From: Chrysaora quinquecirrha
Lineage: Eukaryota; Cnidaria; Scyphozoa; Semaeostomeae; Pelagiidae
Assembly (NCBI GenBank): GCA_014526335.1
Contig: JACTAT010000057.1
Location: 1-64,000, forward strand
Direction: 5' to 3'
Length of the DNA: 64,000 nt
Shown: positions 4,920-51,844 of the stretch, piece by piece
Layout: every line of letters starts with the position of its first letter
How positions within the stretch are numbered: position 1 is the first letter of the stretch
The notes under the pieces: generated by a model
The model's database searches: none
Told to the model about the DNA's origin: nothing
The model's input: only the letters and a program-made list of their open reading frames with translations
Translations under genes and position numbers: made by a program

Positions 4920-4955
4920 TCAAAATTTTTCTCAGAAATGCCCATCCGTTTATGC

Positions 4956-6398: not shown

Positions 6399-6415
6399 TC
6401 GGAAAAAGATCACAA

Positions 6416-8957: not shown

Positions 8958-9521
8958 ATTGCCTAAAACATTTTAACGAACGCCTGAAGACGATAAATAA
9001 GAACACTGGGCGACCGCCGATTAAACGGTTTAAGTTGATAGAAAAGACGTATCCTCAATAAATATTCAAATCACATTGAGTCCAATCCTGCTGAAAAAGT
9101 GTTCAAATTTTGAACGGCTGAACATTCTTAGTAAAATTCCGAGGGCAGCAAGTGCTCCCTTTCCCAAGTTTCACACTTTTCTTCCCATAGACTTTGCCTT
9201 TTATATGGGCGCCGAGTACTTAGGGGCCTCACATCCCCCTCTGGTACTCGCCGGCCTCTAAGCGTACCAAAGCTTTGGGGTATTACACCCCCCAATGTCT
9301 TTACGCTTAGCTAACACGTATAAAAAAGAACTTATGTTTTGCATAATCGCATTCATCCCAGTGCGCGAAATCTTCGCACTGGATGGGATTATGGGAAACA
9401 AAACGGGGGGGAAGCTTCTTGCCACGAGCCACTTCCGTGTACTCCCACAAATCGTTGTTGTTTATTCTTGTTTTATCTGTTCTGGTATTCAGAATTCTGC
9501 GCGGCGAACAATAATTAATGC
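8958..9521. other. no gene seen
   Basis: Contains short local palindromes around 9240-9310 (CTAAGCGTA with TACGCTTAG). No coding support. Confidence 0.4.
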
Positions 9522-10959: not shown

Positions 10960-10969
10960 TATTGAACAT
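9974..10969 (-). CDS. orphan class A (rhodopsin-like) 7TM receptor, intact
   Basis: A 331-residue single-exon receptor, expected at the cell surface. The extracellular N-terminus (1-57) has five N-glycosylation sequons (N3, N16, N29, N36, N43). TM1 is about 60-83, TM2 93-113 with SVSD, TM3 130-157, TM4 174-196, TM5 210-232, TM6 251-274 with a CCFLP motif in place of CWxP, and TM7 283-303. The DRY box is replaced by QRI (155-157), and the TM7 NPxxY region reads NSMLY, so G-protein coupling may be atypical. The basic ICL3 (KRRPAI...NKR) is class A-like. The ligand is unknown. Two damaged relatives (5408-6391, 22410-23042) and a fragment (12110-12342) show a local lineage-specific cluster. The start at Met1 is supported because frame and homology continue to it. 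Confidence is high for the 7TM class and low for function. Confidence 0.9.
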   Translation of the reverse strand: MFNKSDFKHDTTSSLNHSFAFNDKDLLFNDTFSRFNISDFYSNISIPDYHFPPGRTSTDDILSIVYIAIGLAGIIANMLQIGCICHKGKKRTTFDLVLLSHSVSDVVVLVPTLLANTIMLFTMTTLVLKILVTAALSTYFSVFSSLFHGIFIALQRICAVVVPFKVKRLFSTRRCLISIFFIWLSSIGLPFATVFALRATNGNHISITGLGYSIILSTACLIFLYSILLFLIKRRPAISCSSRANTNKRVIVHSFSLIAVFVCCFLPIGIVVLYKGQTSAWFSNIARMFFLFNPLFNSMLYFFVSYCRTRMKVQDNNTVELRNYRNSASEK

Positions 10970-18900: not shown

Positions 18901-18983
18901 GTCTTCTGCAATGCCACAAGAAGTCAGAGCCATGGTTTAATTAATGAAAAGAGTGAGCAAAGTCGTAGAATGTTTTTAAAGTA
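12950..18983. repeat. 130-bp satellite array, left block
   Basis: The head-to-tail monomer has a period of 130-131 bp (for example TCGTCTGCAA at 13961, 14091 and 14221). There are two main subfamilies: A, about 13310-14640, with TGCAATGCCACAAAAGTCAG; and B, about 15110-18420, with TGCAATGCAACAAGAAGACA. Diverged monomers lie at both borders. Shared boxes are AAGTCATAGA-ATACTTG, TGTTTCAAA, TGACGACTGGAAAAC, TCAAGTATA and CTGCAATGC; the stretch between CTGCAATGC and the AGTCATAG box is subfamily-specific. No coding potential. Confidence 0.95.
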
Positions 18984-19307
18984 CAAAACTAGTTTTTTTA
19001 ATAAGAAACCGACTATAAGAAACTATATATGCCGTTTTCTAAAAAGTCAAGAAACTCTTCTATATGGACTAAGAAGTATAACAAAAACTAGGAAACTATT
19101 TCTGCCTTTAAATTCAGCTTTCTACTTTCTGATATGCATTTTATATTGTTTACATGAAAATAATCCTCAAAAACTATCATGCTTAGGAATAATTCAAGAA
19201 AATGTCCATGTTTTGAGTGCTTAGACCATCATACTTTATATTACATACAACATCATATTAAACCATTATTTCATGAAGTTCTCGAAGTTTCAATTTTTAT
19301 GTTAAGA
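16360..19307. repeat. segmental duplication inside satellite, copy 1
   Basis: Matches 19308-21600 in monomer order and private variants, including the transposon at 18984. Copy 2 lacks about five monomers (equivalent to 16860-17510) and one more near 17970, and has one extra near 20600. Confidence 0.85.
18984..19307. mobile_element. AAGAAAC-type MITE, 3'-truncated copy
   Basis: Identical or nearly so to the first three quarters of the element at 21279-21697, but cut at 19307, where satellite resumes mid-monomer. The truncation marks the junction of the segmental duplication. The 84-codon frame within it is present in both copies and is not considered a gene. Confidence 0.8.
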
Positions 19308-21278
19308 CGACTGGAAAACGTTGGTCAAGTATAGGTTTCTGCAATGCAACAAGAAGACAGAGACATGAATTATTTGATGACATGAATGAGGCAAGTCATA
19401 GAAATACTTGACTTAATGTTTCAAAGCAATTTTATTGACGACTGGAAAACATCTGTCAAGTATAGGTTTTTGCAATGCAACAAGAAGACAGAGACATGAA
19501 TTATTTGGTGACATGAGTGAGGCAAGTCATAGAAATACTTGACTTATTGTTTCAAAGCAATGTCCTGACGACTGGAAAACGTTGGTCAAGTATAGGTTTT
19601 TGCAATGCAACAATAAGATAGAGACATGAATTATTTGGTGACATGAGTGAGGCAAGTCATAGAAATACTTGACTTATTGTTTCAAAGCAATGTCCTGACG
19701 ACTGGAAAACGTTGGTCAAGTATAGGTTTCTGCAATGCAACAAGAAGACAGAGACATGAATTATTTGGTGACATGAGTGAGGCAAGTCATAGAAATACTT
19801 GACTTATTGTTTCAAAGCAATTTTACTGACGACTGGAAAACGTTGGTCAAGTATAGGTTTTTGCAATGCAACAATAAGATAGAGACATGAATTATTTGAT
19901 AACATGAGTGAGGCAAGTCATAGAAATACTCGACTTATTGTTTCAAAGCAATGTCCTGACGACTGGAAAACGTTGGTCAAGTATAGGTTTCTGCAATGCA
20001 ACAAGAAGACAGAGACATGAATTATTTGATGACATGAGTGAGGCAAGTCATAGAAATACTTGAATTATTGTTTCAAAGCAATGTCCTGACGACTGGAAAA
20101 CGTTGGTCAAGTATAGGTTTCTGCAATGCAACAAGAAGACAGAGACATGAATTATTTGATGACATGAATGAGGCAAGTCATAGAAATACTTGACTTAATG
20201 TTTCAAAGCAATTTTATTGGCGACTGGAAAACATCTGTCAAGGATAGGTTTCTGCAATGCAACAAGAAGACAGAGACATGAATCATTTGATGACATGAAT
20301 GAGGCAAGTCATAGAAATACTTGACTTATTGTTTCAAAGCATTTTTGCTGACGACTGGAAAACATCTGTCAAGGATAGGTTTCTGCAATGCAACAAGAAG
20401 ACAGAGACATGAATTATTTGATGACATGAATGAGGCAAGTCATAGAAACACTTGACTTATTGTTTCAAAGCAATTTTACTGACGACTGGAAAAAATCTGT
20501 CAAGTATAGGTTTCTGCAATGCAACAGGAAGACAGAAACACGAATTATTTGATGACATGAGTGAGCAAAGTTATAGAAATACTTGACCTATTGTTTCAAA
20601 GCAATTTTACTGACGACTGGAAAAAATCTGTCAAGTATAGGTTTCTGCAATGCAACAGGAAGACAGAAACACGAATTATTTGATGACATGAGTGAGCAAA
20701 GTTATAGAAATACTTGACCTATTGTTTCAAACCATTGTCCGACGACTCGAAAGCTTCAGTCAAGTATAGGTTTCTGAAATGCCTAAAAAAGTCAGAGCCA
20801 TGTTGTAATATATGAAATTAGTGATCAAAGGTATATAAATACTTGACTTATGTTTCAAAGTTATGTCTTGACGATTGGAAAACATCAGCATGTATAGGTC
20901 GTCTGCAATGCCACAAAGTCGGCCATAGTATAATTAATGAAATTAGTGTGCAGAGTCATAGAAATACTTGACTTATGTTTCAAAGTGATGTCTTGTCGAT
21001 TTAAAACATCGGTTGAGGATAAGTCTTCTGCAATACCACATGAGGTCAGAACCATATTTTGATAAATGAAATGATTGAGCAAAGTCATAGAAAACATCAT
21101 GTATAGGTGGGTCTGAAATCAAATAAAACTTTCACTTGCATTGCTTCACTTAATTTTCAAAGTAATGAAGATTGGAAAACATCATCCAAGTATAGGTCTT
21201 CTGCAATGCCACAAGAAGTCAGAGCCATGGTTTAATTAATGAAAAGAGTGAGCAAAGTCGTAGAATGTTTTTAAAGTA
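19308..21278. repeat. 130-bp satellite array, right block
   Basis: Continuation of the same array, equivalent to 16360-18983 with monomer gains and losses. From 20775 to 21265 the diverged border monomers repeat those at 18480-18970 with two or three single-base changes. Confidence 0.9.
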
Positions 21279-21697
21279 CAAAACTAGTTTTTTTAATAAG
21301 AAACCGACTATAAGAAACTATATATGCCGTTTTCTAAAAAGTCAAGAAACTCTTCTATATGGACTAAGAAGTATAACAAAAACTAGGAAACTATTTCTGC
21401 CTTTAAATTCAGCTTTCTACTTTCTGATATGCATTTTATATTGTTTACATGAAAATAATCCTCAAAAACTATCATGCTTAGGAATAATTCAAGAAAATGT
21501 CCATGTTTTGAGTGCTTAGACCATCATACTTTATATTACATACAACATCATATTAAACCATTATTTCATGAAGTTCTCGAAGTTTCAATTTTTATGTTAA
21601 GAAACTCTGAAAGAAACTTTTACTATACTATTTGTGCTGAAAGTTAAGAAACGGTACTATATGGCTCAGAGCATAGTTTCTTATAAAAAAATGAGTG
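21279..21697. mobile_element. AAGAAAC-type MITE, full copy
   Basis: Runs from TTTTTTTAATAAGAAAC near its left end to GTTTCTTATAAAAAAATGAG at its right end, with TA flanks (21277-21278, 21698-21699). It contains internal AAGAAAC/AAGGAAAC-like words. Related to the element at 26355-26751. Confidence 0.75.
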
Positions 21698-26751: not shown

Positions 26752-26998
26752 TACGCCAATTTGTCGGATAAGTTTTGGCTTTGCGGTAAACTCTTAGCTA
26801 CACCATATTATTGAAGTTGATTAAAGTAAGAAATTTGAGTACTCATGGCAAAAAATACAAGGAACCATGAGAAATAAAGAGAGCATTCTATTAAATGTTG
26901 CCGTTTTTTTTTTGCATTTGTTATTTTAAATTGGAAACTGTTGGTTCCAGTCCTGCCCGGCCGGATTGACAATTTAGAGAACTGGGACGAATCTTATA

Positions 26999-27363
26999 CA
27001 CTTTTTTCTAATAAGCAACCGCTCAATAAGCAACTAGGGCTGAACTGACCTCAACATTAAGCAACTTAAGGGCTCGATTGAATTACTGTAAGCAACTAAG
27101 AAGTCAAACAACCAAGCTTATACGCTTTCTTGTTGTTAGGAAATTGTTCGTTCTTATGTTTTGCATGTTGAAGTTCGTTAGCTAACGTTTATTCACTCAC
27201 TGTCTCCCAAAAGTAGTTTTGCAGGCCTAACAGTTGACGATTTTGACCGGCGAAGTCAGGGGTGGCTGTTAGGTACAAATGATGTTAAGCAACTTCTAAG
27301 CAACTTTGAGGGCTGAAATGTCTAAAATTAAACAAAAGTCCAGTTGCTTGTTAAAAAAAAGGG
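26999..27363. mobile_element. AAGCAAC-type MITE, copy A2
   Basis: Reverse orientation relative to A1. TA flanks. The right terminus is slightly degraded (AAAAAAAAGGG). Confidence 0.85.
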
Positions 27364-29149: not shown

Positions 29150-29908
29150 ACCAACCACAATATACTTCCAACCACAGTATTAGAAACCAAGATTTTTTTC
29201 AGTGTCCAAAGTTTCTTAATTTTTGGAGAATTTTGGTACTGAAAGTTTCTGCACAGTTTCTTAGAAATCAACATGTTTTAATTGCCAAAACTGGTAATTG
29301 ACACTTACATTTGACAAACAGAACAAGCAATATAATTGACGTTCACATGAGCTGTTTTTTTGTAAAAGTAGACACATGTAACAAAATTTCGTTTCTCGAT
29401 GATATATTTCTAATTCTAAAGATTGTTGAGACCTGTGAGTTGAGATTCTTATAATTTTGGGTCGAGTACACTTTTTTAATAAGCAACCGCTCAATAAGCA
29501 ACTTGGGCTGAACTGACCTTAACATTAAGCAACTTGAGGGCTCAATTGAATTCTGTAAGCAACTAAGAAGTCAAACAACCAAGCTTATACGCTTTCTTGT
29601 TGTTAGGACATTGTTTGAAGTTCTTGAGCTAACGTTTTTCCACTTACTGTCTCCCAAAAGTCGTGTTATAGGCCTAACAGTTGACGATTTTAACCCGCAA
29701 AGTCATAGGTGGTTGTTAGGTAAAAAAGGTTAAGCAACTTTTAAGCAACTTTGAGGGCTAAAATGTCTAAAATTTTAAGCAACTTTGAGGGCTGGACGCA
29801 AGTCAAGTTGCTTATTAAAGAAAAAGTGTGTACTGAAAGTTTCTTAAACCAATATTGACCTCACTACTGAGTTTCTTATACACGAGTTCTTAAATAAAAA
29901 AGAGTGTA
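29150..29908. mobile_element. AAGAAAC-type MITE D3, degraded, with A3 inside
   Basis: The left part (29187-29260) resembles D1 with CCAAAGTTTCTTAATTTTTGG. After the A3 insertion the right part ends GAGTTTCTTATACACGAGTT and an AAAAAAGAGTGTA-like terminus. The left terminus is not sharply defined. Confidence 0.5.
29469..29830. mobile_element. AAGCAAC-type MITE, copy A3
   Basis: Left end CACTTTTTTAATAAGCAACC, right end GTTGCTTATTAAAGAAAAAG followed by TGTG, TA flanks. Reverse orientation. Confidence 0.85.
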
Positions 29909-29935: not shown

Positions 29936-30062
29936 AAAAAAATACGACCACATCAATAACTCGCCACATCAAGCATAATAATCCACCACAGTAGTGCGTA
30001 TCCATCACAGTACGCAAGAAGTACCACCACAGTTGTTCGTATCCACCACAGTATTGCGTATA
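29936..30062. repeat. short minisatellite of CCACCACAGTAGTGCGTAT
   Basis: Five or so degenerate ~22-bp units centred on CCACAGTA-TGCGTA. Confidence 0.7.
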
Positions 30063-30952
30063 GATTCGCTAGCGTGAATCCATTGAATAAGTATTTGAAA
30101 TACTTTGGTTTTCACATGATCTGCACAAAAATTTTGTGAGTAAGAAATCCTAAAAGGAAACGACAAAATAACCACAATAAAAGATACGAGAATTTGCCTC
30201 TGGATCTAGTTACTCCACACACATCATATTAATCCGTGTCGGATTTTCTATTATTTGGAAATGAAATTCTATTATGTGAATATTTCTGTAAAGTATCTGT
30301 GTTGGTTTTTGTAGATCATGTTGAAGCGAACCAGTCTAGAACATTTAAATGCTGTCAGGAACACGTTAAACTAAATTGATAAAAATAGGAAAGCAGCATA
30401 AGAGGATAGGAGGGTAAGCGAATTTCGTGAGTAAATTTCGATTGAGATTATTCTTAATTTTTCTCCAGGTTTTAAGGTTAAAATTTTCCTAATCCTTTCT
30501 TAGATTCTTTCATTGTTTAGATAATGCTATTTTCAAATATACATTCGCCCAAAATATACCTAAGTCTGTTTTCGAAGAATACGCGGCAAGAAAGTTGTGA
30601 ATAAAATGTTGCAATACTTTCGTGATATCAAATGCAGTTGCTTGATGCTGATATCGAATTTAATATTTCCTGGCTTTCTCCTTCTCTCAGTCTATTCTAC
30701 AGGCCAATCTCAATGTGCTGTTAAAGTCCATATTGTCACTAAAAAAAATTCTTGAAACTTCATCAGCAAATGAAAAAAATATATCTATTTTGTACAATAA
30801 ACTTTGGTCCATCTATCAAAGCAGGGTTTTAGGCTTTGGCCCTTTGAACGTTCTAAAAGTTCCTCAGAGTTTCTTAATTTCCAAGGAGTCGCTCACTTGT
30901 GTTTGCTTGACATATAGGGAAACGATGAGTAATAGGAGTAGGACTTGAAGTA
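30063..30952. other. no gene seen
   Basis: AT-rich; a 77-codon frame at 30715-30948 lacks motifs. Confidence 0.4.
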
Positions 30953-31713: not shown

Positions 31714-32334
31714 CGTAGTAAAGTAAAACCTATTGCAGATAATGGAAACCAAGAAAACTGTGAAGTGTAGAAAGAGACAACACGTTGAAAACTATATACA
31801 AAACCTCATGAAATATATACAAAACATCTAACTAAGAATAACATCGTAATAATCGTGAGTGAACATGAACGTTAACGTGAGAGCGAACGTAGAAAGCGAA
31901 TACAAGACGAATACAAACGAATAAATCTAAAAGCTAAGCTACACAATTATAAGGAAACAGGAAAACGTGACTAGTGTCCAGACTTCTAAGATTACTAGGG
32001 TCCAGACCTCCGTACTTGTCAAAAACTCTAGCTCTTTGTTGTTCTAGCCTTTTTTTAGCTATTAAGGGATGATCGAGATAACTGAAGAGTCAGAGTTAAC
32101 ACTTGGTTGATGGACGAGCTTTTATTACATTGAAATTTGAGAAACTTAGAAAATATTTGCATCTCAAACGTTTTATAAGTCTAAAGCTTGTTCTAAATTT
32201 CCTAAATTGTCCAGCATTAAATGAGAGAATTACTGAGTCGTAGTTTTCGCTGGCTTCACCTTATTTCTTTTTAGATCATCCCAAAAACAATTGTCGTTGC
32301 TGTTGTTGACGGCGGCAACTCAGACTTTCTAGTA
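31714..32334. other. no gene seen
   Basis: AT-rich, no supported gene. Confidence 0.4.
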
Positions 32335-32708
32335 CACACTTTTTTTTGATAAGCAACTTGACTTTCGTCCAGCCCTCAAAGTTACTTAAAATTTTAGACA
32401 TTCAGCCCTCAAAGTTGCTTAAAAGTTGCTTAACCTTTTTTGCCTAACAACCACCCCTGAATTTGCAGGTCAAAATCGTCAACTATTAGGCCTATAACAC
32501 GACTTTTGGGAGACAGTAAGTGGAAAAACGTTAGCTAAAGAACTTCAACATGCAAAACAAACAATGTCCTAACAACAAGAAAGCGTATAAGCTTGGTTGT
32601 TTGACTTCTTAGTTGTTTACAGAATTCAATTGAGCCCTCAAATTGCTTAATGTTAAGGTCAGTTCAGCCCTAGTTGCTTATTGAGTGTTTTCTTATTAAA
32701 AAAAAGTG
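32335..32708. mobile_element. AAGCAAC-type MITE, copy A4
   Basis: Starts CACACTTTTTTTTGATAAGC, ends TTCTTATTAAAAAAAAGTG, TA flanks. Same orientation as A1. Confidence 0.85.
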
Positions 32709-32956
32709 TATTTATATTTAAAGTTCAATGGGCAGTGCGCATGGAGGCTTGGAGCGAATTTAATGGCTTGCAGTGAGTCTAGAAACTTTGCTGAAAGTTT
32801 GGCTGTGACCCTGCTCCTAGTCTTTTTCCGACGAACTATTAAAGTTTCTCCTCCAAAGACTAGGACATGGTCCCAAAACAACTGTCTGCGCTCCTGTGCA
32901 GCGAACAGAATTGACAGAAAGAGATGGGAGGAAGTCTAAATTAAACACTGTAGTAT

Positions 32957-33744
32957 CACCCCGTACAACGTGTGTGCAGTAGTGTGGGGGATGTGCAGTA
33001 GTGTGGGGGATATTCAGTAGTGTGGAGGGATATCATGAGTTGCACGGGGAGGCATCTCTGAGTAGTGTGGGGGATGTTCAGTAGTGCGGAGGGATATCTC
33101 TGAGTAGCGCGGGGGATGTTCAGTAGTGTGGAGGGATACCATGAGTAGTGCGGAGGGATATCATGATGCTTTCGGGGAGGCATCATCAGTAGTGTGGGGG
33201 ATGTTCAGTAGTGCGGGGGGATACCATGAGTACCGTGGAGGGATATCATGATGCTTCCGGGGAGGCATCTCTGAGTAGTGTGGGGGATGTTCAGTAGTGT
33301 GGGGGATTATCTCTAAGTAGCGCGGGGGATGTTCAGTAGTGTGGAGGGATACCATGAGTAGCGCGGAGGGATATCATGATGCTTCCGGGGAGGCATCATC
33401 AGTTGTGTGGGGGATGTTCAGTAGTGCGGGGGGATATCATGAGTACCGTGGAGGGATATCATGATGCTTCCGGGGAGGCATCTCTGAGTAGTGTGGGGGA
33501 TGTTCAGTAGTGCGGAGGGATATCTCTAAGTAGCGCGGGGGATGTTCAGTAGTGTGGAGGGATATCATGAGTAGCGCGGAGGGATATCTTTCAGTAGTGT
33601 GGGCCATTTGCATGATGATCATGTTAATCACGCTTAATCAGGTTGAGAAACAGTGTTAAAAGACGGGGGCTCAGCAACACGCGTTTTGCAAGACCTGAGA
33701 AATCGAGCGATTCCTTCATAATGTGACAATTTTGTTGAACCGAA
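32957..33744. repeat. left inverted arm of foldback-like element
   Basis: After the 22-bp terminus, units follow in three classes. X is 19 bp (AGTAGTGTGGGGGATGTTC). Y is about 22 bp (core GGAGGGATATCATG). Z is 22-23 bp (core CGGGGAGGCATC). By hand the order is XXYZ, XYXYYZ, XYYZ, XYXYYZ, XYYZ, XYXYY, then about 150 bp of non-repetitive inner arm. The ten-unit phrase XYXYYZ-XYYZ (about 213 bp) is a higher-order repeat. Open frames here are by-products. Confidence 0.9.
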
Positions 33745-34325
33745 ATGCAATTGAGCATACTGGAAAGGAATTTTTCTTCAATTTCGCTTGCTGATTTGAA
33801 TACCTGGCAACAATATGTAAATGCCACGATATTTTTCTAAGAAAATCTATTTCTAAACTTGCAGTTTTCTCTCTCTCGCTATCGTACTTGTTGTGCTATA
33901 CACATTTTCATTTCCTGTTCGAAAACGGTCGTCAGAACAATCGAGAAGCAATTTACTAAACTCCAAATTTAAGCTTTCCTTCTTTACTCGAATGTAATTT
34001 GACTTGATAATCAAAGAGATTCGCTTTTGTGCAAAGTAGCTATTCATCTGGAAAGAAAATAAGTACTTCTCTGACAATGGTTGCTTTAATGTGCATATCA
34101 TAACGCAACTCACGCGTTTCGGTATTTAAAGTTAAAATCCCTTTCTCGCAGTCTAAGACAGGGATGAAATGAAACAAAACTATTTTAGAAAGCCGTTTTT
34201 TTCAGGTTTCTTACGGGGTTTGGAAAAATGTTGAAACTCCCAGAATAGTAGCTTTAACTCCAAGTCCCTCTATGACACACACGGTCACTATATCGTGCCT
34301 TACTGACTTTGCGTGACCATAATCG

Positions 34326-34558
34326 TTGTCTAGAAAATATATACTTCCTACCAACAAAGGTTGCTTTAATAATAGCTATTCAATAATAAGCCCACCTAGC
34401 CTGAAAAAGTACAGCCCCTTCAAAGTTCATTTCAGTTTCAGTCGCAGTTCGAGCAAGATTTCTTTGACAATGTCTTCGTTTACTAGTCCGATTCAAGGTT
34501 TTAGAAGAATTCTAGAAACTGGAAATACGGAAGAAATAGAAAGGAACTGAGTGAGTCG
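34326..34558 (+). promoter_or_regulatory. leader with upstream ORF of the zinc-finger gene
   Basis: An ATG frame here (with an internal ATG at 34470) ends in TGA at 34548-34550, eight bases before the zinc-finger ATG at 34559. If transcribed, this short uORF could limit translation or require reinitiation. A GTGAGT at 34551 also resembles a splice donor, so an alternative first exon is possible. Neither use is demonstrated. Confidence 0.3.
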
Positions 34559-35470
34559 TTGATGCCAACAATACCGAAGCCTTTCAATATTCCACAGCAA
34601 AAACAACCACTTTCGCAAGATTTGGAATACAGTTATGAAGATGCTCAGCAAGTGTACGACAGTGATTTCAATGCTGCAGCAAGCAACTCGTATTCAAGTC
34701 TTCATCGTACTAGCGCTGGAAGCTCCTCCACAGCAACACAGTCGTCGTTATTACCCCTCCATTTCCCGCAAGACAATTCGGTCAAAGGAAAAGCAACTTC
34801 AGAAAACGATATTTTGAAGAAATACAATTGTCCAGAGGAAAATTGTAAAGCCGCGTTTTTCAGAAAAGACCGTTTGGACCGACACATCGCTACCATACAC
34901 CGTGGAATAAAGATCGCCTGTCCTCATGATGGTTGCGAAAAGCTGTACAGAGACAAATGGGACCTACAACGTCATATTGCTGGACAGCACGAGGGTATGG
35001 AATTCAAATGTAGTTTTCCTGGTTGCAAGAAAGCTTATAAGCATAAGCGAAGTCTCACCTTGCACAAGTTCCAGTGTCATGAAGAGGAATTGGAAGGAAA
35101 TCAAGCATCTTTCATTTGCTCTGTACCCAGTTGCGAAAAAAGATTTAGCCAGTCACATCTTTTGGAAGGTCACATGACATTGCATGATGGGGGAAAAAAG
35201 CACAAGTGCAAAATATGCAAAAAGGAATTTGGCTATGTGCATAACTTAAGAAGGCACGAAAAGAAAGGATGCAGCTCGGCAAGTGTTGCAGCAAAGTCTT
35301 TTTTATGTTCTGAAGGAAATTGTGATGCTGGGTTTTCCGATATCAGGAGTCTAAGAAGACATATTCAGACAGTTCATGAAAAAAGAAGATTTGAATGCAG
35401 AATTTGCAAAGCCAAGTTCTCGTATTCATCGGGTCTTAGTAGACATAAACTGACTTGTACAAGTCAGTAA
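34559..35470 (+). CDS. seven-finger C2H2 zinc-finger protein, TFIIIA-like
   Basis: An intact 303-residue single-exon ORF. Residues 1-90 form a low-complexity Ser/Gln-rich N-terminus. Seven C2H2 fingers follow from about residue 95 to the C-terminus. Fingers 1-4 and 6 have the Cx4C spacing of TFIIIA/Zic types (for example CPEENCKAAFFRKDRL then HIATIH). Fingers 5 and 7 have Cx2C spacing and end in a Cys (HEKKGC, HKLTC), so they are C2HC. Linkers such as HRGIKIAC and HEGMEFKC are TFIIIA-like, not TGEKP. Expected to be a nuclear DNA- or RNA-binding protein. TFIIIA itself has nine fingers, so this is a shorter relative. It is the only intact gene in the loop of a foldback-like element and has no frameshift, which suggests selection or youth. 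Targets are unknown. Confidence 0.85.
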   Translation: MMPTIPKPFNIPQQKQPLSQDLEYSYEDAQQVYDSDFNAAASNSYSSLHRTSAGSSSTATQSSLLPLHFPQDNSVKGKATSENDILKKYNCPEENCKAAFFRKDRLDRHIATIHRGIKIACPHDGCEKLYRDKWDLQRHIAGQHEGMEFKCSFPGCKKAYKHKRSLTLHKFQCHEEELEGNQASFICSVPSCEKRFSQSHLLEGHMTLHDGGKKHKCKICKKEFGYVHNLRRHEKKGCSSASVAAKSFLCSEGNCDAGFSDIRSLRRHIQTVHEKRRFECRICKAKFSYSSGLSRHKLTCTSQ

Positions 35471-35896
35471 CTATGCTAGTATTTCCTTCTTTATTATTTA
35501 TTTTCTTATTTAGCCTACTGATGTTCGTTGTATTTTATTACATTATGTTATGTTAAGTTTTGATATGGTTATATACAACTTATCGGAGTTGAAAGTCGCA
35601 TTCTTATGAAACGTTCAAGCGATTCTAAACTGAGATTAAATTGATAATCCGCTGATTACACACTATTTTTTAAAAGAATTCAGTCCATAAGAACATCGAG
35701 GCGCAAAATGGCTAAAATTTTAGAATTATTTAAGTAAGCATAATGCAAGGCTCAAGCTTCACAAACACAATTTCTTTATTTCCTGCGTTTTATGCAAGGC
35801 GCAAAAGTTGATTGTCGCGTTGTATATGTTTAACAATACACAGACTACATTGGTACAATAAGATTGACGGAGTTGAAATAGTGCTACGAAATGCAG
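35471..35896. other. 3' flank of zinc-finger gene inside loop
   Basis: AT-rich. An ATTAAA near 35635 could serve as a polyadenylation signal. Nothing else recognised. Confidence 0.35.
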
Positions 35897-37797
35897 TTCG
35901 GTTCAACAAAATTGTCACATTATGAAGGAATCGCTCGATTTCTCAGGTCTTGCAAAACGCGTGTTGCTGAGCCCCCGTCTTTTAACACTGTTTCTCAACC
36001 TGATTAAGCGTGATTAACATGATCATCATGCAAATGGCCCACACTACTGAAAGATATCCCTCCGCGCTACTCATGATATCCCTCCACACTACTGAACATC
36101 CCCCGCGCTACTTAGAGATATCCCTCCGCACTACTGAACATCCCCCACACTACTCAGAGATGCCTCCCCAGAAGCATCATGATATCCCTCCACGGTACTC
36201 ATGGTATCCCCCCGCACTACTGAACATCCCCCACACAACTGATGATGCCTCCCCGGAAGCATCATGATACAAGGCATATTTTAACGTATGTACTGGTGGG
36301 CCATTTGGCCCACCAGGCCCCACAAGCTGGCCCACCACTGACGACAATTTTTGCCAAATTGGCCCACCACTGTTTGGGCCCTTTGCCCAAACTAGTAAAT
36401 GACCTGGAGTTGTTTCGATACAATAAAACTGAAACACGTTTTATTTTTGCTACAAAATTGTATTGAAAACATAAGAAAAGTAAATTGATTGAATTGATTT
36501 GTTGTTGCAATACATCAAAAGCTTCATCGAAATTACACCTTGAAAGGCTAAGTAGGACCACCAACTGCCTTGGAAAATATGTTTATATAATTAAGAATTT
36601 TAGTCCGAAAGAGGCTACGAGAGCAAAAGTAGCTGCTTCTATATTCAAAATTTTCCCCACAAGCTGGCCCACCACTGACGACAATTTTTGCCAAATTGGC
36701 CCACCACTGTTTGGGCCCTTTGCCCAATCTAGTAAATGACCTGGAGTTGTTTCGATACAATAAAACTGAAACACGTTTTATTTTTACTACAAAATTGTAT
36801 TGAAAACATAAGAAAAGTAAATTGATTGAATTGATTTGTTGTTGCAATACATCAAAAGCTTCATCGAAATTACACCTTGAAAGGCTAAGTAGGACCACCA
36901 ACTGCCTTGGAAAATATGTTTATATAATTAAGAATTTTAGTCCGAAAGAGGCTACGAGAGCAAAAGTAGCTGCTTCTATATTCAAAATTTTCCGGGGGAG
37001 CATGCCCCCGACCCCCCAAGGAGGGTCCGCCTTCGGCGCACTAACTCACTTTAGTGCCCCTTTTTTCATGTTCCACCCCCCCCACTTTTCAATACCCTCC
37101 TACGCCCCTGTGATACAGTTGTTTTACGTGCTATATGCAAGGGATGTACAAAATTTGTTGCTCAATTCATTTCTCTCTATTCTATTTATTGAAGAAGCCG
37201 GAGTGTAAAGTAATTGGACTTTATGAATGAGCTTCCGATAGGGCTTGGATATTAAAATTAGGATCTCATCTCTGTGGACTTTCTCCGGGCTGGCAGTGAA
37301 AAAAAATTATAAGAATTTATTGGGCCCCATGTCACCTTTGGCCCACCACTGAAAATTTCTTAAAATATGCATTGTCATGATATCCCTCCGCGCTACTCAT
37401 GGTATCCCTCCACACTACTGAACATCCCCCGCGCTATTTAGAGATAATCCCCCACACTACTGAACATCCCCCACACTACTCAGAGATGCCTCCCCGGAAG
37501 CATCATGATATCCCTCCACGGTACTCATGGTATCCCCCCGCACTACTGAACATCCCCCACACTACTGATGATGCCTCCCCGAAAGCATCATGATATCCCT
37601 CCGCACTACTCATGGTATCCCTCCACACTACTGAACATCCCCCGCGCTACTCAGAGATATCCCTCCGCACTACTGAACATCCCCCACACTACTCAGAGAT
37701 GCCTCCCCGTGCAACTCATGATATCCCTCCACACTACTGAATATCCCCCACACTACTGCACATCCCCCACACTACTGCACACACGTTGTACGGGGTG
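35897..37797. repeat. right inverted arm, interrupted by hAT MITE
   Basis: Reverse complement of 32957-33744, split at 36262-37382 by the hAT element and its duplicated TCATGATA. Unit order and even unit variants (for example the CGGTACTCATG Y unit) mirror the left arm. Confidence 0.9.
36270..37374. mobile_element. hAT-type non-autonomous element
   Basis: Termini CAAGGCATATTTTA and TAAAATATGCATTG are 13/14 inverted matches. Flanked by the perfect 8-bp duplication TCATGATA (36262-36269 and 37375-37382). No transposase. It contains two tandem ~337-bp copies of a segment (starting CCCACAAGCTGGCCCACCAC at about 36320 and 36657), rich in TTGGCCCACCACTG words. Confidence 0.9.
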
Positions 37798-38074
37798 AGT
37801 ATGAACACTTTACTAAGAAGACTTCTGAGAGAAAACGAGACTTTTTTCTTGCCGAAATTTAAGAACCATTGCCAATAACATTGTAAGACCGTTATTGCAT
37901 TATACAAACGTTATTACATTATACGATGGTCTTTTCTTTGTAAAAACATATCTACTTCCATACAAGCGGAAACCTCTAGAAAGCCCCTATACTATGGAAA
38001 ACTAAATGGACTGTTGTCTGGCGTTACCCCCTGGCGCCTTTTCTATATATTGTGCAACGGTACTTCCTACAGTC

Positions 38075-38169: not shown

Positions 38170-39108
38170 ATGGAGTCGAAAATTCGAAATTTTGATGGCA
38201 ATGGTGAAATCAAAGTTTTTCTCGAAAAGGTTGATTTGCACTCAGCCCTAAAGGGCTATGATGCTGCAAAGTCAGCGCAGAATCTGGCAAGCAAACTCGA
38301 AGGTCGTGCCTTTGACGTTTATATGCGGTTGTCTGACACAGATAAGAAAGATGTCAAGAAAATAAAAGAAGAATTAATGAAAGAATTTCAACTGGGAAAT
38401 CAAGACAGAGAAAAGGCCATGCAAGAATTGGGTACCCGACAACGTAAACCTGGTGAGTCTCCACAAACCTTTGCTTTTAAAATAATGGAGCTCGTTAAAC
38501 TTGCGTATCCTACTTTTGACAATGCAAATCAAGAGACCATAGCGAAGGATTACTATATGAAAGGCATCCATCCGAAAATGCAAATCGCTTTAAAAACAAT
38601 GCCAAATTTTACTGCATTAAGCCTCAACGAGGTGGCCAAGGAAACTATCAGATTACAATTAGCCGGCATTGAATCGATTTCTTTGCCCACACAAAATCAA
38701 TGCATGAGCATCAACAATGACGCAAATGAGAAGAATCAAACCCTGATGGACTCAATTGTAGAAAAAGTTGTTGCTAAGATGACAGATATGTCTGTGGGAG
38801 CTGAAACGTCCAATGAAGCCTGTAGTGAAACTACCCAGGAATTTCCCTCCGCTAATTTCCTTAGTAGTCGTTTCAATAGGAATCAAAGAGGAACAAGAGG
38901 ACGACAATATGTCAACAGAAACAATAGCCGTTATAACAACCGGGGGTACAGGCAAAATAATTCTCGTACGAATAATCAACAAACCAGGAAATGCCGTGCC
39001 TGCCAAAGCACCGATCACTTTGTCCGTGATTGCCCAACTAGGTTTTGCCAGGCTTGCGGTCAAAGAGGTCATGACTCTTGGGACAGGTCGTGCCCAAATT
39101 TCCAATGA
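38170..39108 (+). CDS. gag: retrotransposon Gag-like polyprotein
   Basis: 312 residues. The N-terminal two thirds are helical and charged, as in Ty3/gypsy capsid proteins (MQELGTRQRKPGESPQTFA region). An Arg/Asn/Gln-rich basic linker follows, then two C-terminal zinc knuckles: C275-C278-H283-C288 (CX2CX4HX4C) and C293-C296-H301-C308, the second with an unusual H-x6-C spacing. Such Gag proteins package element RNA in cytoplasmic particles. The ORF is intact and ends CAA-TGA-CTA, after which the same frame continues into protease. No flanking LTRs were recognised. The element is truncated within RT, so this is a remnant despite the clean gag. Confidence 0.85.
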   Translation: MESKIRNFDGNGEIKVFLEKVDLHSALKGYDAAKSAQNLASKLEGRAFDVYMRLSDTDKKDVKKIKEELMKEFQLGNQDREKAMQELGTRQRKPGESPQTFAFKIMELVKLAYPTFDNANQETIAKDYYMKGIHPKMQIALKTMPNFTALSLNEVAKETIRLQLAGIESISLPTQNQCMSINNDANEKNQTLMDSIVEKVVAKMTDMSVGAETSNEACSETTQEFPSANFLSSRFNRNQRGTRGRQYVNRNNSRYNNRGYRQNNSRTNNQQTRKCRACQSTDHFVRDCPTRFCQACGQRGHDSWDRSCPNFQ

Positions 39109-39375
39109 CTAGGCCAAGAAGAAAAAGCGAGTAGCACTGGAACACCTAGTCGTCCATTTTCTGCCGTATTAGAAGTAAAGTTCGAGAATAAATTACTAAA
39201 TGCTTTGTTAGACACTGGAGCGAGTTGCTCAATTATTGATCTTGGAACTATTCAAAATCTCGGACTTGATAAGAATATAATTAAATCTACCCACGAATTG
39301 ATAGATGCTTCAGGGAACGATATGAGCATTGCAGGGTCTGTCGATTTAAACGTGCATTCCGCGATTTCCGAGTAG
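39109..39375 (+). pseudogene. pro: aspartic protease segment, same frame as Gag
   Basis: The frame continues directly past the gag TGA. Codon 35 of this stretch starts the retropepsin signature DTGAS (Asp codon at 39211), followed by CSIIDLGTIQNLG and a flap-like ASGNDMSIAG segment. It terminates at TAG (39373-39375). The following Pol frame carries the expected next residues (FRVVQN, ILGRDFL) in another phase, so a one-base shift near 39355 breaks the protease. Stop readthrough could express it if the shift were absent or bypassed. Confidence 0.75.
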
Positions 39376-39383
39376 TTCAAAAC

Positions 39384-40616
39384 ATGAAAGTTCTCAATTC
39401 GAAAACATTTCGTAACGTTATTCTTGGAAGAGACTTTCTGTCTCATTTTAAAACGGTCGAATTTGACTTTGTAGGCAATCGCGTAAAATTGGGAAATCAG
39501 TGGTCTAACTGCGTAGAAATAAGAGGGAAAGAACTTGTCCGATTAAACGAAAAAACTTCAGTTGCAGGTCGAACAGAAACGGTAATCCAAGTCAAATGCA
39601 AAAAATCAACTGCACTGATTACTGCAGATTTCGAACCAATTCCGATTTCAGAAAAACCTGGCATTTACGCAACGTACTGTCGAGTAATTCCAAACATTGA
39701 AGGAGTTTTCAACATCACCCTTCTAAATGTAACCGATCAATCCATAGAGCTAGATTGTGATCAAATGATTGGGCATTTGGTTAGCACAGATAAATCTGTC
39801 TCTGTTATTGAACCCGTATCCGCCGCTACCTCGCCTACGAAAGATAACATTGTGGTTGGCAGTAATCTTTCTATGACGGAGAAAGAACAGATTTCTTCAT
39901 TAATTTGTAAATACAAAGACGTATTTGCGTCAAATCCTAAAAAACCCAACCTTGTTAAGAACATGAAACATCGTATCATCACAAATAATGAACAGCCAGT
40001 TAATAGGAAACCGTACCGTGTTCCTTATGCCTGGCATGCAGAGGTCGACAAACAAATTCAAGAAATGGTCGACAATAATATCATCCGCCCGTCATCTTCC
40101 CCTTGGAATGCGCCGATCATTCTTGTCAGAAAAAAAGACAATTCAATGAGGTTCGTGTGCGACTTTCGTGGGCTTAACGACGTCACAAAAAAGGATTCCT
40201 ATCCTCTACCTCGTATTCGTGACGTCATAGACAATATGCAAGGGACAGAATATTGGACGACACTAGACGCGGCGTCGGCATATTGGTCTATTCCGGTAGC
40301 AGAGACAGATAAAGAGAAAACTGCTTTCTCCGTCTCCCGCGGCAAGTTTGAATTCAATGTGATGCCCTTTGGCTTGTGCAATGCCGGGGCGTCATATCAA
40401 AGAATGATGGATATAAACTTGGCTGGTCTGCCAACTAATCGAATCTTAGCATACATGGACGACATCGTTGTGTTCAGCAAAACGTTTGATGAACATTTAT
40501 CCAGCATTGAGCAATTATTTCAGCGGCTTCAGACATCCGGAATATCCCTCAAACTCTCAAAGTGCGTTTTCGCCAGTAACAAAGTTGACTTTCTCGGATT
40601 GGAACCCTTCCTTTAA
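39384..40616 (+). pseudogene. pol: Ty3/gypsy-like Pol: protease end plus truncated RT
   Basis: A 410-codon open frame. It starts in the protease tail (ILGRDFLSHF) and continues through the classical RT blocks: SSSPWNAPIILVRKKD, RFVCDFRGLND, TLDAASAYWSIPV, FNVMPFGLCNAGASYQRMM, then catalytic YMDD at 40452-40463 (YMDDIVVFS), and KLSKCVFASNKVDFLG. It then ends abruptly (EPFL, stop at 40614-40616). Thumb, RNase H and integrase are absent. Sequence after 40605 is unrelated, so the 3' half has been deleted or replaced. The RT core itself shows no stop, implying recent truncation. Confidence 0.85.
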
Positions 40617-42364: not shown

Positions 42365-43945
42365 GAACTGTCGATACATCTATTCTATTCTATTCTATGA
42401 TTTATTTAATGTTAGTTTTGACAATAGTGATGTGACACTAATTTACACTAACATGAAGCAACTTCAGAGATTGCATTAGGTCATTATTTGTTGCAAAAGG
42501 AGCAAGCGCATTTGTTACTAAGAAACCACGTTTTTAGCAAGTTTTTAAACTGCCTTGGGTTTCGAGCCGATGTTATTTCATCCGGAAGGGCGTTCCAGAT
42601 TTTTGGTCCTTGGAAACTTAGTGATTTGATTCCATAGCTTGTAGTCCTGACTTTCGGAATTTCAAGGATATTTCTTTTACGGAGGTTGTGATCTACTTGC
42701 TTTGGTGAAAAATAGCTTTTCATAAATGCTGGGTTAATATTATTAAGAGTTTTGTAGACTTCATACGCTAGAAGTCTAATGGATTGGACATGGACAGTAG
42801 TTTCTCTAGATCTTGCAAGTAAAGTTTCGTACGAGGACGTGTAATCAGAGCACGCTAGTCGCAAAGCTCTTTCATTTATTTTTTCAAGCTTGTCTTGGCT
42901 ACCCTTGTTACATAGCATCAAAATCAATGGGCAATAATTGAAATGACAGAGGATAAATGAATTTATTATGATCTTTCTTTCTTTTTCACCCATATATCTT
43001 GCTAAACGTTTGAGCGAGTTTAGTTGTTTTGCAGCTTTTTTACATATTTTGTCAATGTGGGAATCAAACTTTAAGTTGTCATCCAATTCAACACCAAGAA
43101 GGGTAACCTGATTGTCTACTTTTATGTCTAGATTTGCGTCAATTTCAAAGCTATGTGTTTATCTTTATTTCCAATAGTTATTGCTTGAAACTTAGGAAAG
43201 ATAGTTTTGAATTAACAGGAGAGATCTTAGTTCTATTCCGTAAGCATGCAGTTTTGCTAGAAGCAGATTTTTTGGAAGGCAATCAAAAGCCTTAGATAAA
43301 TCCATAAGGACAGCGCCTATATGTTTGTTGTTTTCTAAACCTGATTTCCAATCTTCAATCAGCCTAAATAGAGCGTGTTGTGAAGAAAAGTGTTTTCTAT
43401 AAGCACATAGGTACATTGAGTACCGATCCTCGAAAAATAGAGAGAGTTGAAGCTCAATTGCTTTTTCAAAAACTTTTGAAAAAGTTGTCAGTAAACTAAT
43501 GGGTCTGTAATTTTCTTTATTAAAAGGATCTTTTTTCTTATATACTGGTGTAACAACTGCTTGTTTTAAAGATTTAGGAAAAGTCCCTTGAGAAATACAT
43601 TTGTTCAAAACATTAAGCAATGGCTGTAAGATTAAATCAACTGAGATTTTTAGAAGTTTAGCGCTTATCATGTCATGTCCAGTTGCTTTTTTATCATCTA
43701 GATTTGTAATAATATATCGAAGTGCTCCTTTAGGAACAAGTTTAAAGTTTAAGCTGGAATCATTTGATAAATTAGCTTTTATTTTTCTAATACTTGGATG
43801 GTCTTGGAAATTGTGTATTATATCTCCTATTGTTAATTGTTCTTTATAATAGACAAATGTATGTGTCTCTATTTCCTTTACAAGGCTATGGTTGTTGAGT
43901 ATCCTATTTGTAGTTGTTAATAGAGGACAAATCTTTTTCGCTGAG
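42365..43945 (-). pseudogene. LINE (CR1/L2/jockey-type) with RT core deleted
   Basis: The minus strand reads N-terminal RT blocks (ATGHDMISAKLLKI, TPVYKKKDPFNKENYRPISLL, VLMDLSKAFDCL) down to about 43195. It then jumps directly to the connection region (FPKFQAITIGN) and, after a frame shift near 43150, to VTLLGVELDDNLKF and the C-terminal domain ending at 42484. The palm segment with the YADD box is missing. The 3' end carries a (TAGAA)n-type simple-repeat tail on the minus strand (plus-strand TCTAT repeats at about 42380-42400), typical of CR1/L2-group elements. The 5' end is truncated around 43945. Confidence 0.85.
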
Positions 43946-43971
43946 TTTTCAGTTCTTGAAGTTCCCTTCAC

Positions 43972-46305: not shown

Positions 46306-46611
46306 CACCCCCTAAATGTCTGTGCAGTACGGTGGGGGATGTGCAGTGCGGTAGCGGATACTCAATACGGTGGGGGATCTGTGATTGCTGCGGGGAGGCA
46401 TCTTGCAGTACGGTGACGGATATTCAGTACGGTGGGGGATACCATGGTGCCTGTGGTGGGATACCATGATTGCCGTGGCGGATATTCAGTACGGTGGGGG
46501 GATACCATGATGGCTGTGGAAGGCATCATGATTGCCGGGGCGGATATTCAGTACGGTGGGGGGATACCATGATGGCTGTGGTGGGATACCATGATTGCTA
46601 TGGGGAGGCAA
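46306..46611. mobile_element. diverged solo arm of the foldback-like family
   Basis: Begins CACCCC...TGTCTGTGCAGTA, like the terminus at 32957. It continues with 19-23-bp units in which the X word reads AGTACGGTGGGGGATGTGC. Unit order by hand is XXYZ, XYY, XYZ, XYYZ. Only one arm is seen, and it ends at a Z unit (GGGGAGGCA). Open frames are incidental. Confidence 0.75.
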
Positions 46612-47348
46612 ATTTGTTAAGATCAATAACTAGCCTGGTGTTACGTACTTAAATACTTCTCGACGTTTTCAAGTTTGGAAAACATTGAACTTTCTTAAGA
46701 AAAATCTGATACGTTACCACATTTCATACAGTAGACCAAATAATGTTTTACACACGAATTTTGAAATGGGTGGGGTTGTGCACACCCTACGACCCTATAC
46801 CGTAAATCTCTGCTGGGTAAAACTACATGAGCCACTGTTTAAAGGGTTACATACGTGGTTCTCCTTTACAATTTCGTCCTCATCTTCAGTTCATGCAAAA
46901 ACTCTTACCCCCTGACTGGCCTATTCATTCATGTAATAATAATCTGCTGACATAAATCTTGTTATTTTTGATGTACTTAAATTCGGGTAATCCATTCCGC
47001 TAAGGCCTACTATAAACGTTGAACGTTCCGCTTTATACGACTCTCGTTCTTGCAGGATTTACGGGGATTTACCTCCCCATTGAGACAACTGTGAATCTCA
47101 ATGGATTGACAACATAGATGACAACCTGATCAGTTGATGTTTGTTTTTCCAGAGCTTCTATTCAGAGTTGCTGTGTCTTGTTACTTGTTGGTCCTGGTAT
47201 CCTCTGCTTACGACTTTCACTTCTTATTTGCTCTGTGTTGATGATTGGTACGACGATTACATAACAGGTATGCTATAGTTTGTAGCCACAGGCGCAATTT
47301 TTATCTGGAACTTCGCTCTGATTATTGTATTATAAATTTGATTAATTA
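46612..47348. other. no gene seen
   Basis: No supported gene or repeat. Confidence 0.4.
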
Positions 47349-47736
47349 CACTTTTTTTAAATAAGCAACCGCTCAATAAGCAACTACAGTAGGGCTGAAC
47401 TGACCTTAACATAAAGCAACTTGAGGGCTCAATTGAATTACTGTGAGCAACTAAGAAGTCAAACAACCAAGCTTATTCTCTTTCTTGTGTTAGGAAATTG
47501 TTCTTCGTTCTTATGTTTTGCATGTTGAAGTTCGTTAGCTAACGTTTTCCCACTTACTGTCTCCAAAAAGTCATGTTGTAGGCCTAACAGATGACGATTT
47601 TGACCCGCGAAGTCAGGGGTGGTTATTAGGTACAAAAAATGTTAAGCAACGTTTAAGCAACTTTGAGGGCTGAAATGTCTAAAATTTTAAGCAACTTTGA
47701 GGGCTGGACGAAAGTCAAGTTGCTTATTAAAAAAAG
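47349..47736. mobile_element. AAGCAAC-type MITE, copy A5
   Basis: Left end CACTTTTTTTAAATAAGCAA, reverse orientation. The right terminus is shortened (TTGCTTATTAAAAAAAG then TA). Closest to A6. Confidence 0.85.
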
Positions 47737-48023: not shown

Positions 48024-48523
48024 NNNNNNNNNNNNNNNNNNNNNNNNNNNNNNNNNNNNNNNNNNNNNNNNNNNNNNNNNNNNNNNNNNNNNNNNNNNNN
48101 NNNNNNNNNNNNNNNNNNNNNNNNNNNNNNNNNNNNNNNNNNNNNNNNNNNNNNNNNNNNNNNNNNNNNNNNNNNNNNNNNNNNNNNNNNNNNNNNNNNN
48201 NNNNNNNNNNNNNNNNNNNNNNNNNNNNNNNNNNNNNNNNNNNNNNNNNNNNNNNNNNNNNNNNNNNNNNNNNNNNNNNNNNNNNNNNNNNNNNNNNNNN
48301 NNNNNNNNNNNNNNNNNNNNNNNNNNNNNNNNNNNNNNNNNNNNNNNNNNNNNNNNNNNNNNNNNNNNNNNNNNNNNNNNNNNNNNNNNNNNNNNNNNNN
48401 NNNNNNNNNNNNNNNNNNNNNNNNNNNNNNNNNNNNNNNNNNNNNNNNNNNNNNNNNNNNNNNNNNNNNNNNNNNNNNNNNNNNNNNNNNNNNNNNNNNN
48501 NNNNNNNNNNNNNNNNNNNNNNN
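48024..48523. other. assembly gap of 500 Ns
   Basis: Exactly 500 ambiguous bases, a placeholder length. True size and content are unknown. Confidence 1.
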
Positions 48524-49570: not shown

Positions 49571-51456
49571 GCGATGTCGTCAATTATGGGGCTCTGAAAG
49601 GGGTTTTTTGGAGTAAGGGAGCAAGACCTGCAACACGCTGGGAGCAAGGTAGCATAAGTAGGAAGTAGAAAGCACTGGAGCTTAGCTTAGGAGCGAACCG
49701 ATTGCTGGAGAGTACTAAGGTGAGATGCGAAGGAGGATACTGTGAAGGAGACTACTCGGGCACAGCACAAGTTTAACTTCGACGGGAGCATGGTGCTTTC
49801 TAAGATAGGAGCAAAGGAGCAACTACCCCACATATCAGCGCCACAGTTATGATGGTGATGATAATCGTATTCTATAAAAAGCTACAACAGTTGTTCGGTT
49901 TGAAGAGTAGCTCCTTAGCTCCAACCCAACAGTATCTTCAATATTTGAACTATGCAAATTTTTAAAAGATGACGTCATAAGAATGCGTGATAGAGGCTAC
50001 ACGAAACGAACGCAAAGACCAAAACGTGGATGCGCGCCATCAACTATCAAAGGTATACTACTGATTACTCTTAATGAATGATCATTAATCGTAATTAAGC
50101 ATCATTAATGCAATATGATAATTATCTAGCAATCAATAGACGTCTGAGGTCCACGTACATATATTAATATAATTTTCACAAATTACCACATTTACCTCTT
50201 TTTCGCATAAATTCAAAATAGTCATCTAGAAATTCTTTTCTTTCGGGATCGTCATCAATATAATACAACTATAATGAAAGCAAAATCATCATAATTATGT
50301 GTATTTGATTTTATATCTACCACACCCATATAATTTCGGCCATTGCGGTGTCTGTTTTGGTCAATTTCGCGCCAGTTCTAAAGAAAGTGGAGAAATTATT
50401 ATCAAAACCACGCAATTGCTAAGCAAATTTTGAAAAGGAATTTCGGAAATGTTTTGGTTGCCTTTACCACCCTATTCGCGAGTTACTACTTTTCTTCGGA
50501 TGCTTTTGATACTTTATTTTTTCGGACCAAACTAAGATTCGACAACGATTCGCCTGCTTCGCTTGTGTTGGTGCGAAAAATTAAAAACACATCTGTCAGT
50601 GAGGCTGTTCGTTAACATTGAACCCAGGCGGAAAATGCCCCAACACCAGGGAACCTTTTAACGTACCGAGTAGGCTCCTAGTCCTACCCTAATCGATAAA
50701 ATAGTACTTTTGCCCAGGTGGCCGAAGTCAAAACACCCCCCCCCCAAACAGCATCTTGATCACGAAAAAATGTTTTGTTCCCTTTCGATCTCCCATTGAC
50801 AAAATTTTAACTAAGGAACTATAATCTCTGCTGACGGAAAATTGTTAAACTCCGACGATTGGTGTACCATTTGATAAAAATCATGTTTCAGTTTAATTTT
50901 GCTTTGTTTCGTGATTTTTTGTGTCTGTTTCAGCTACAGTAGGTATTCAACCTTTGTTTTTCAATGCACCTCGGCGTATCGAGACACGTGTTAAAACACA
51001 AGGTCCCGGGGCCCTTTTCTGGGCCATTCATCACTCCAAAGATCCTTAAAAAACCGCTCCGCACTCCCCGTTTGCCCCAGGCAGTAATAACTTTTTGCCA
51101 CTGGTAAAAAGTATCCGCTTTTCACCAAGGACCAGATAGGTTTGATTAACATTACTGTGAATTCGTGAAATTGTATTAATTGTCTTGCATGTCTTTGAAC
51201 CAAACAGCAAGCCGATGCAACATTACTTAAAGAGGCCCTTGGCTACACCTAATCTTTATCTTTATTAAAAAAAGAGATTTCATTTCAAAATTGTTCTGGA
51301 CACAGTAACTACAGAAGCTACTATAAGATAGGGATGGGGTTGCTAGTAACAGGAAGTTAAAGCTGATAAAAATTTGTAACTTCATTCAGAAAAATCAGAA
51401 GTTTTTGAGACCCAGTTTCGCAGTGTGCATTGTCTGACGAAAATGCGCCTCGTATA
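49571..51456. other. no gene seen
   Basis: Mostly AT-rich; a C homopolymer near 50740. A 70-codon frame at 50991-51203 has no motif. Confidence 0.4.
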
Positions 51457-51844
51457 CACTCTTTTTTTTAAATAAGCAACCGCTCAATAAGCAACTAGGG
51501 CTGAACTGACCTTAATATTAAGCAACTTGAGGGCTCAATTGAATTACTGTAAGCAACTAAGAAGTCAAACAACCAAGCTTATTCTCTTTCTTGTGTTAGG
51601 AAATTGTTCTTCGTTCTTATGTTTTGCATGTTGAAGTTCGTTAGCTAACGTTTTTCCACTTACTGTCTCCCAAAAGTCTTGTTGTAGGCCTAACAGATGA
51701 CGATTTTGACCCGCGAAGTCAGGGGTGGTTAGTAAGTACAAAAAATGTTAAGCAACGTTCAAGCAACTTTGAGGGCTGAAATGTCTAAAATTTTAAGCAA
51801 CTTTGAGGACTGGACGAAAGTCAAGTTGCTTATTAAAAAAAGTG
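51457..51844. mobile_element. AAGCAAC-type MITE, copy A6
   Basis: Left end CACTCTTTTTTTTAAATAAG, right end TTGCTTATTAAAAAAAGTG, TA flanks. Nearly the same sequence as A5. Confidence 0.85.

Follow-up and report, generated by a model that had tools for sequence, protein, structure and literature searches.

Positions 32957-37797 of contig JACTAT010000057.1 of the scyphozoan Chrysaora quinquecirrha, of which the first 64,000 nucleotides (the window) were analysed, hold two long inverted arms around a loop with a C2H2 zinc-finger gene, and raise the question of what this unit is, what moves it and why it carries such a gene. The answer that we favour is that the window copy is probably a non-autonomous member of a multi-copy family of foldback elements, which have CACCC termini and duplicate 5 bp of their target, and that it is moved in trans by a large nuclease-like protein that the rarer full-length copies of this family are predicted to encode. 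This protein would cut at the CACCC ends and join them to a target whose strands are cut 5 bp apart, and the zinc-finger protein would be the family's own DNA-binding partner acting on element DNA, be it in end recognition, in repression or against silencing. Ends and arms are what the window copy has kept; without a nuclease gene of its own, and with a zinc-finger frame that is damaged at the front, it would depend on the full-length copies.

The unit is built as follows:

32952..32956 (no strand): left copy of AGTAT, the presumed 5-bp target duplication
32957..33744 (+): left arm, 788 bp, an array of 19-22 bp units that starts with CACCCCGTACAACGTG
33745..34470 (+): loop stretch 5' of the zinc-finger gene, likely a promoter region
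34471..34550 (+): front of the zinc-finger gene (upstream ATG, N-terminal codons), out of frame with the remainder (break near 34543)
34562..35470 (+): C2H2 gene, seven fingers, intronless, 302 open codons and a stop
35897..36269 (-): right arm, inner portion
36262..36269 (no strand): left copy of the 8-bp duplication TCATGATA of a nested insertion
36270..37374 (no strand): hAT-like nested insertion of 1,105 bp, which splits the right arm and holds a 337-bp internal tandem duplication
37375..37797 (-): right arm, outer portion, starting with the right copy of TCATGATA (37375-37382)
37798..37802 (no strand): right copy of AGTAT

A preliminary description of this locus had proposed equal, near-identical 788-bp arms with matching termini and a flanking AGTAT repeat, and this holds, coordinates included. 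Apart from 36270-37374, the inverted arms (32957-33744 and 35897-37797) are identical at 785 of 788 positions, the three mismatches lying at 33317, 33437 and 33471, and both termini read CACCCCGTACAACGTG. Such identity is probably a poor guide to age, because the arms can convert each other. AGTAT directly flanks both ends and, among lengths 2 to 15, a full match is found at 5 only, the chance of a shared 5-mer being 0.0016 for random pairs of window sites. Splitting 654 bp of the left arm with a regular expression yields 29 pieces, of which the first has 39 bp; a higher-order repeat of 213 bp also occurs. The arm has a G+C content of 52%, against 38% for the loop. The right arm is split by the nested insertion, which is flanked by an 8-bp duplication of its own, TCATGATA, has 15-bp ends matching at 14 of 15 positions, and is taken to be hAT-like from this duplication and the end pattern. 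A 10-kb copy repeats positions 1-678 of the loop on the inner side of each arm, and the stretch 33745-34470 is therefore likely a promoter region. Pfam comparison of 10 of the 29 loop frames gave chance-level matches only (E 0.023 or worse).

Mobility is best seen from the other copies. In the genome searched (328 Mb, 740 contigs, the window lying on contig C486), the arm has at least 47 matches, three of them inside the window element, with 40 of 1464 candidates scored. Twenty loci were fetched first and a few added later. Exact 5-bp duplications flank 11 of the 14 two-ended copies examined, a set that excludes clustered ends on C101 (L015, L016) and loci showing one end or none; by chance, 0.0016 would be expected for each. 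The duplications are AGTAT, TAGAC, ATAAG, ATCTT, AATAT, AGCAT, AAAGT, TTTAT, GTTCA, TTTCT and GATCT; their G+C is 24%, and the last base is T in 8 of the 11. L028 (C424:4143000-4152900) is a short family copy with gypsy-type retrotransposon-like content at 4752-8638 (frames of 669, 278 and 183 codons, the label being judged by eye), and L015/L016 (C101:111000-128400) shows several family ends clustered, two of them 60 bp apart and facing away, which we read as nested or rearranged copies.

Element-free sites complete this evidence. The 10,064-bp copy (C246:5607432-5617495) sits in a dispersed repeat, and its flanks joined through one GTTCA have 35 matches in the genome: 21 cover all 120 bases with no length change at 96-98% identity, four cover 118-120 bases at 91-93%, two represent the flanks of the copy itself, and the others are partial or about 75% identical. 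Two of the 21 element-free places were read base by base, and both hold a single GTTCA, which shows that the family inserts with a 5-bp target duplication. Further copies and empty sites, whose joint absence would have refuted the preliminary description, thus exist. The empty sites belong to the 10-kb copy and cannot verify AGTAT itself: the joined flanks of the window copy match one element-free stretch (C486:122803-123030, L038; 82-88% identical, 85-90 kb away), the only element-free relative of the window site found, and it cannot prove the duplication because about 60 unrelated bases stand at the junction. The status of AGTAT as a target duplication rests on the family pattern. A genome search with the joined flanks of L009, a sister copy, found no empty site. 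Together, the many copies, the duplications and the element-free sites support the earlier proposal that 32957-37797 is a single mobile foldback unit.

The larger copies that were to be looked for also exist: copies of 9-10 kb, which are the rarer ones, are predicted to encode a nuclease-like protein that is a putative transposase. The 10-kb copy consists of a left arm of 766 bp, a homologue of loop positions 1-678, a 546-codon frame, 338 bases with stops and a 667-codon frame; after these come, on the opposite strand, the zinc-finger gene, this loop stretch once more and, cut to about 300 bp, the right arm. The 338-base stretch has plausible splice sites. Two damaged relatives of this copy, L030 and L031, retain parts of the same genes. 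Divergent families have such copies as well. The copy at 4.65 Mb of C246 is complete (9,134 bp, same plan, CACCC ends): each end reads CACCCTGGAGAACGTCTGTGCAGTAC and is flanked by GATCT; there, as in the copies on C113 and C439, the large-protein and zinc-finger genes are convergent, and in the C322 copy they are divergent. The C286 copy (3,644 bp, both ends, TTTCT on both sides) has a 321-codon zinc-finger frame, in which a cysteine of the first finger is lost, and no match to the large protein.

The protein predicted from the full-length copies has about 1,100 residues and contains a YqaJ/lambda-exonuclease-like domain. Piecewise alignment of five families and the damaged L030 reveals conserved blocks, LSFDGK..R.GLT...GD..M.G.E and KQGT..W..LR...VFTGST, then EVS.DG.IC and AK.E.KCP, AT.FDGE..SL..ED....PLT..QLQ, and WW.AEDEPG; pairwise identity is 44-62% in the second block. 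The middle blocks correspond to the YqaJ/lambda-exonuclease-like domain, and the invariant residues include the D and E.K that we take to be expected of lambda-exonuclease-type nucleases. The NCBIfam model TIGR03033 gives L033 an E of 1.6e-7, and L034 and L019 one of 0.03-0.05; none of the three matches reaches the curated cut-off. The large protein is probably the transposase or part of it, and the two FDG motifs flanking the nuclease might, at a guess, supply DDE aspartates.

The zinc-finger gene of the window had been described as intact, and this is true in part. All seven fingers are present and the frame is open from ATG 34562, but the upstream ATG at 34471 is out of frame, with a one-base length difference near 34543. 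In P0001, a relative on a 1,027-bp NCBI contig, and in the sister copy L009 (98% identical), a single frame runs from the upstream ATG; the front of the window frame is thus damaged. The frame of L009 is kept, but the middle of its protein is missing, including most fingers, and the 10-kb copy has a single open frame of 353 codons. Since L009 and the 10-kb copy read through, copies with an unbroken zinc-finger frame exist. P0001 is 56% identical to the window protein over 44% of the query, with 41 of 48 residues identical in the finger part and 36 of 73 in the N-terminal part. Between the window and the 10-kb copy, non-synonymous and synonymous divergence over 302 shared codons (dN 0.028, dS 0.162) indicate that the gene is under purifying selection. 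The gene is matched at 12 of the 20 loci fetched first, mostly by its 5' end, and the short copies, which keep this end, therefore descend from a gene-bearing ancestor.

The two genes also occur together repeatedly. Counting 48 places from 82 rows of open reading frame 1 of the large protein (ORF1; exons merged per place, some weak rows excluded) and the 41 strongest of 145 zinc-finger rows, a zinc-finger place lies within 15 kb at 17 of the 48 ORF1 places, where uniform placement would give 0.18. The paired genes are convergent at 7 places, divergent at 10 and in the same direction at none, two C347 places having one common partner.

Several observations weigh against a nuclease-like mover with a zinc-finger partner. 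On the side of the insertions, the L020 duplication is matched at 4 of 5 bases, and L011 and L017 show no matching 5-bp duplication at their two ends. As regards the large protein, the Pfam YqaJ model is barely over its cut-off of 22 in L019, L033 and L035 (22.2, 23.9 and 23.1) and absent from the 726-residue L034 protein and the two L036 pieces; Pfam detected no transposase model, and nothing but YqaJ above cut-off, in the scanned proteins of full-length copies, and searches of PDB (two frames and alignment A2) and PHROGs returned nothing useful. No zinc-finger place lies within 15 kb at 31 of the 48 ORF1 places, and the orientation of the pairs is mixed (7 convergent versus 10 divergent). 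A test with a crude finger-recognition code gave no sign that the zinc-finger protein binds the arms: for the window arm, each of 200 shuffles reached the score of the arm itself, and the actual order of the fingers came 4042nd of 5040.

That the two proteins have separate jobs is possible, although we would not bet on it: the large protein would move the element, and the zinc-finger protein, dispensable for movement, would be a VANC-like anti-silencer or a self-repressor. The arms lend themselves to this idea. In the first 600 bp from an end, the bases after AGTA are mostly GTG in the window (15/21) and the 10-kb copy (15/22), and differ in other families, with CGG in the 46306 arm (4/4), CCG in L032 (18/21 and 18/22), CTG in L033 (22/25) and CAG in L035 (21/25), the outer 25-30 bp of the ends staying alike across families. 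Each family has its own homogenised unit spelling, in which the arrays resemble VANC targets. In the VANDAL/VANC system of Arabidopsis, an element-encoded protein acts on family-specific tandem units (PMC5735166, PMC10398659). Family-specific units and an element-encoded candidate DNA-binding protein are common to both; VANDALs, however, are plant Mutator-like elements with degenerate ends and a known action on their targets, and here the resemblance is one of sequence. Against separate jobs, the finger code gives no support and the binding is putative. Applied to an arm at 46306, the same code was equalled by 59 of 200 shuffles, with the true order at rank 558 of 5040. This arm is a further feature of the window:

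46306..46612 (+): solitary arm, 13 units, belonging to a related family; starts with CACCCCCTAAATG and has about 72% identity with the left arm

No partner arm for it is present within the window; a 500-N gap (48024-48523) lies downstream and could contain the missing partner. Outside the arm, only a dispersed repeat is shared with the large copies. A degenerate arm-like array at 29963-30071 (-) matches the 46306 arm with E 2.7e-5 and the window arm with E 0.17, the best match outside the element in a reversed-window control having E 0.36; it is perhaps a relic of a further family.

A RAG/Transib-type transposase (CMC clade) encoded elsewhere might instead be the mover, the nuclease-like protein being accessory; this is unlikely. 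RAG-like and Transib elements have ends starting with CAC and 5-bp duplications (PMC7204232, PMC12730594), both of which are present here, and RAG-like elements have two convergent genes, as do some copies here. RAG-like elements are reported from corals (PMC9435367), and YY1, also a C2H2 protein, binds the ends of the lancelet ProtoRAG (PMC7481187). Past CAC, however, the heptamers differ, CACTATG/CACAGTG there and CACCCCG, CACCCCA, CACCCTG, CACCCGG or CACCCCC here; the target composition, with duplications of 24% G+C, and both proteins are also unlike. No Pfam match to RAG1 or Transib was found in the scanned large-protein sequences, the genome itself not having been searched for RAG1.

The preliminary description had also considered a recently captured transcription factor, in which case a foldback element would carry a host zinc-finger gene as mere cargo. 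Several properties of the gene fit a host origin: it is intronless and has TFIIIA-like finger spacing, its best PDB match is TFIIIA (E 4.9e-16), and its relatives in the protein database are P0001 and two GTF3A-like proteins (26-27% identity; P0003 is named GTF3A). Of two further protein searches, one returned P0001 alone and the other nothing, and scans of viral and prokaryote contigs yielded no relative. A recent capture is nevertheless not supported and very improbable, because divergent families of the same transposon, with CACCC-type ends, carry the gene at 33-43% protein identity. Its proximity to the gene for the nuclease-like protein (17 of 48 places), the 5' end kept in short copies and the low dN/dS also argue against cargo. 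A genome search with the gene gave at least 145 matches (130 of 383 candidates scored), among which no close host parent gene was noticed, not all of them having been inspected.

The element has the architecture of a foldback, a loop between long inverted ends that consist of tandem units, and could conceivably be of Mutator or Galileo type, its own transposase having been overlooked; this is very improbable. Galileo makes a 7-bp duplication and Galileo/P elements have a P-type THAP transposase, neither of which is seen here. What Galileo shares with the element is its long repetitive ends, which in that case contain binding sites for its own THAP domain (PMC3688188). The Mutator-type foldbacks Tm1 and Tetris likewise have long tandem-repeat inverted ends and many non-autonomous copies, Tm1 with a gene-bearing class, and they generate 8-10 bp duplications (PMC3169594, PMC4079207). 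Here, in contrast, duplications are of 5 bp in 11 of 14 copies and at the empty sites, and no Pfam match to a Mutator transposase, nor any P transposase model, was obtained in the scanned full-length-copy proteins. As for a segmental inversion or assembly artefact, which near-identical arms might suggest, its probability is negligible: it is ruled out by copies with differing flanks and duplications, by the empty sites and by the later insertion in one arm only.

Two further comparisons bear on classification. ISL2EU (PHIS) is an animal DNA transposon with a YqaJ-domain protein, a separate DDE/THAP transposase and AT duplications (PMC4482050, PMC9179366); the element resembles it in the YqaJ domain, here barely above cut-off in three proteins, and differs in its 5-bp rather than 2-bp AT duplication and in having YqaJ within one large protein. 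With hAT5 elements it shares the 5-bp duplication, and Pfam gave no hAT match in the full-length-copy proteins. In our judgement, none of the Mutator foldbacks, Galileo/P, Transib/RAG or ISL2EU fits, and the literature searched, which did not cover Repbase, holds no description that we recognised as this element. The suggestion of a new element class made earlier gains support, as the foldbacks compared differ in duplication length and the nuclease-like protein of the full-length copies is unfamiliar. We file the element as a new variant of DNA transposon. A new eukaryotic superfamily, defined by foldback arms of family-specific 20-bp units, CACCC ends, 5-bp duplications, a single large transposase that includes a lambda-exonuclease-type nuclease, and a co-inherited seven-finger C2H2 reader of the element's DNA, with DNA and reader evolving like lock and key, is a tentative proposal that would need a fold and chemistry.

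The neighbourhood of the element is itself rich in repeats. Two copies of a chemoreceptor-like seven-transmembrane gene (4949-6396 and 9515-10963) are 99.7% identical, and a further 99.7% duplication adjoins them (4049-4920 / 6414-7286); the duplications at 4049-7286 and 9515-10963 are either recent or an assembly duplicate. A long array of tandem repeats, spaced at about 130 bp, spans 12983-21602 and includes a 2.3-kb duplication at 97.7%. A dispersed repeat of about 390 bp has six copies that are 84-96% identical (82-463, 26992-27329, 29467-29840, 32324-32714, 47343-47735 and 51450-51846), and retrotransposon remains occupy 38170-40616 and 42484-43971, with zinc-knuckle and reverse-transcriptase frames on the plus strand and a second reverse-transcriptase frame on the minus strand.

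Foldback elements are often orphans, whose arms are known and whose movers are not. A single genome here offers short copies, full-length copies, empty sites and a partner DNA-binding gene that is kept under selection, so that two questions become testable: what moves foldback elements, and what purpose their long repetitive arms serve. A lambda-exonuclease-like domain built into a transposon protein would likewise be an unusual mechanism.

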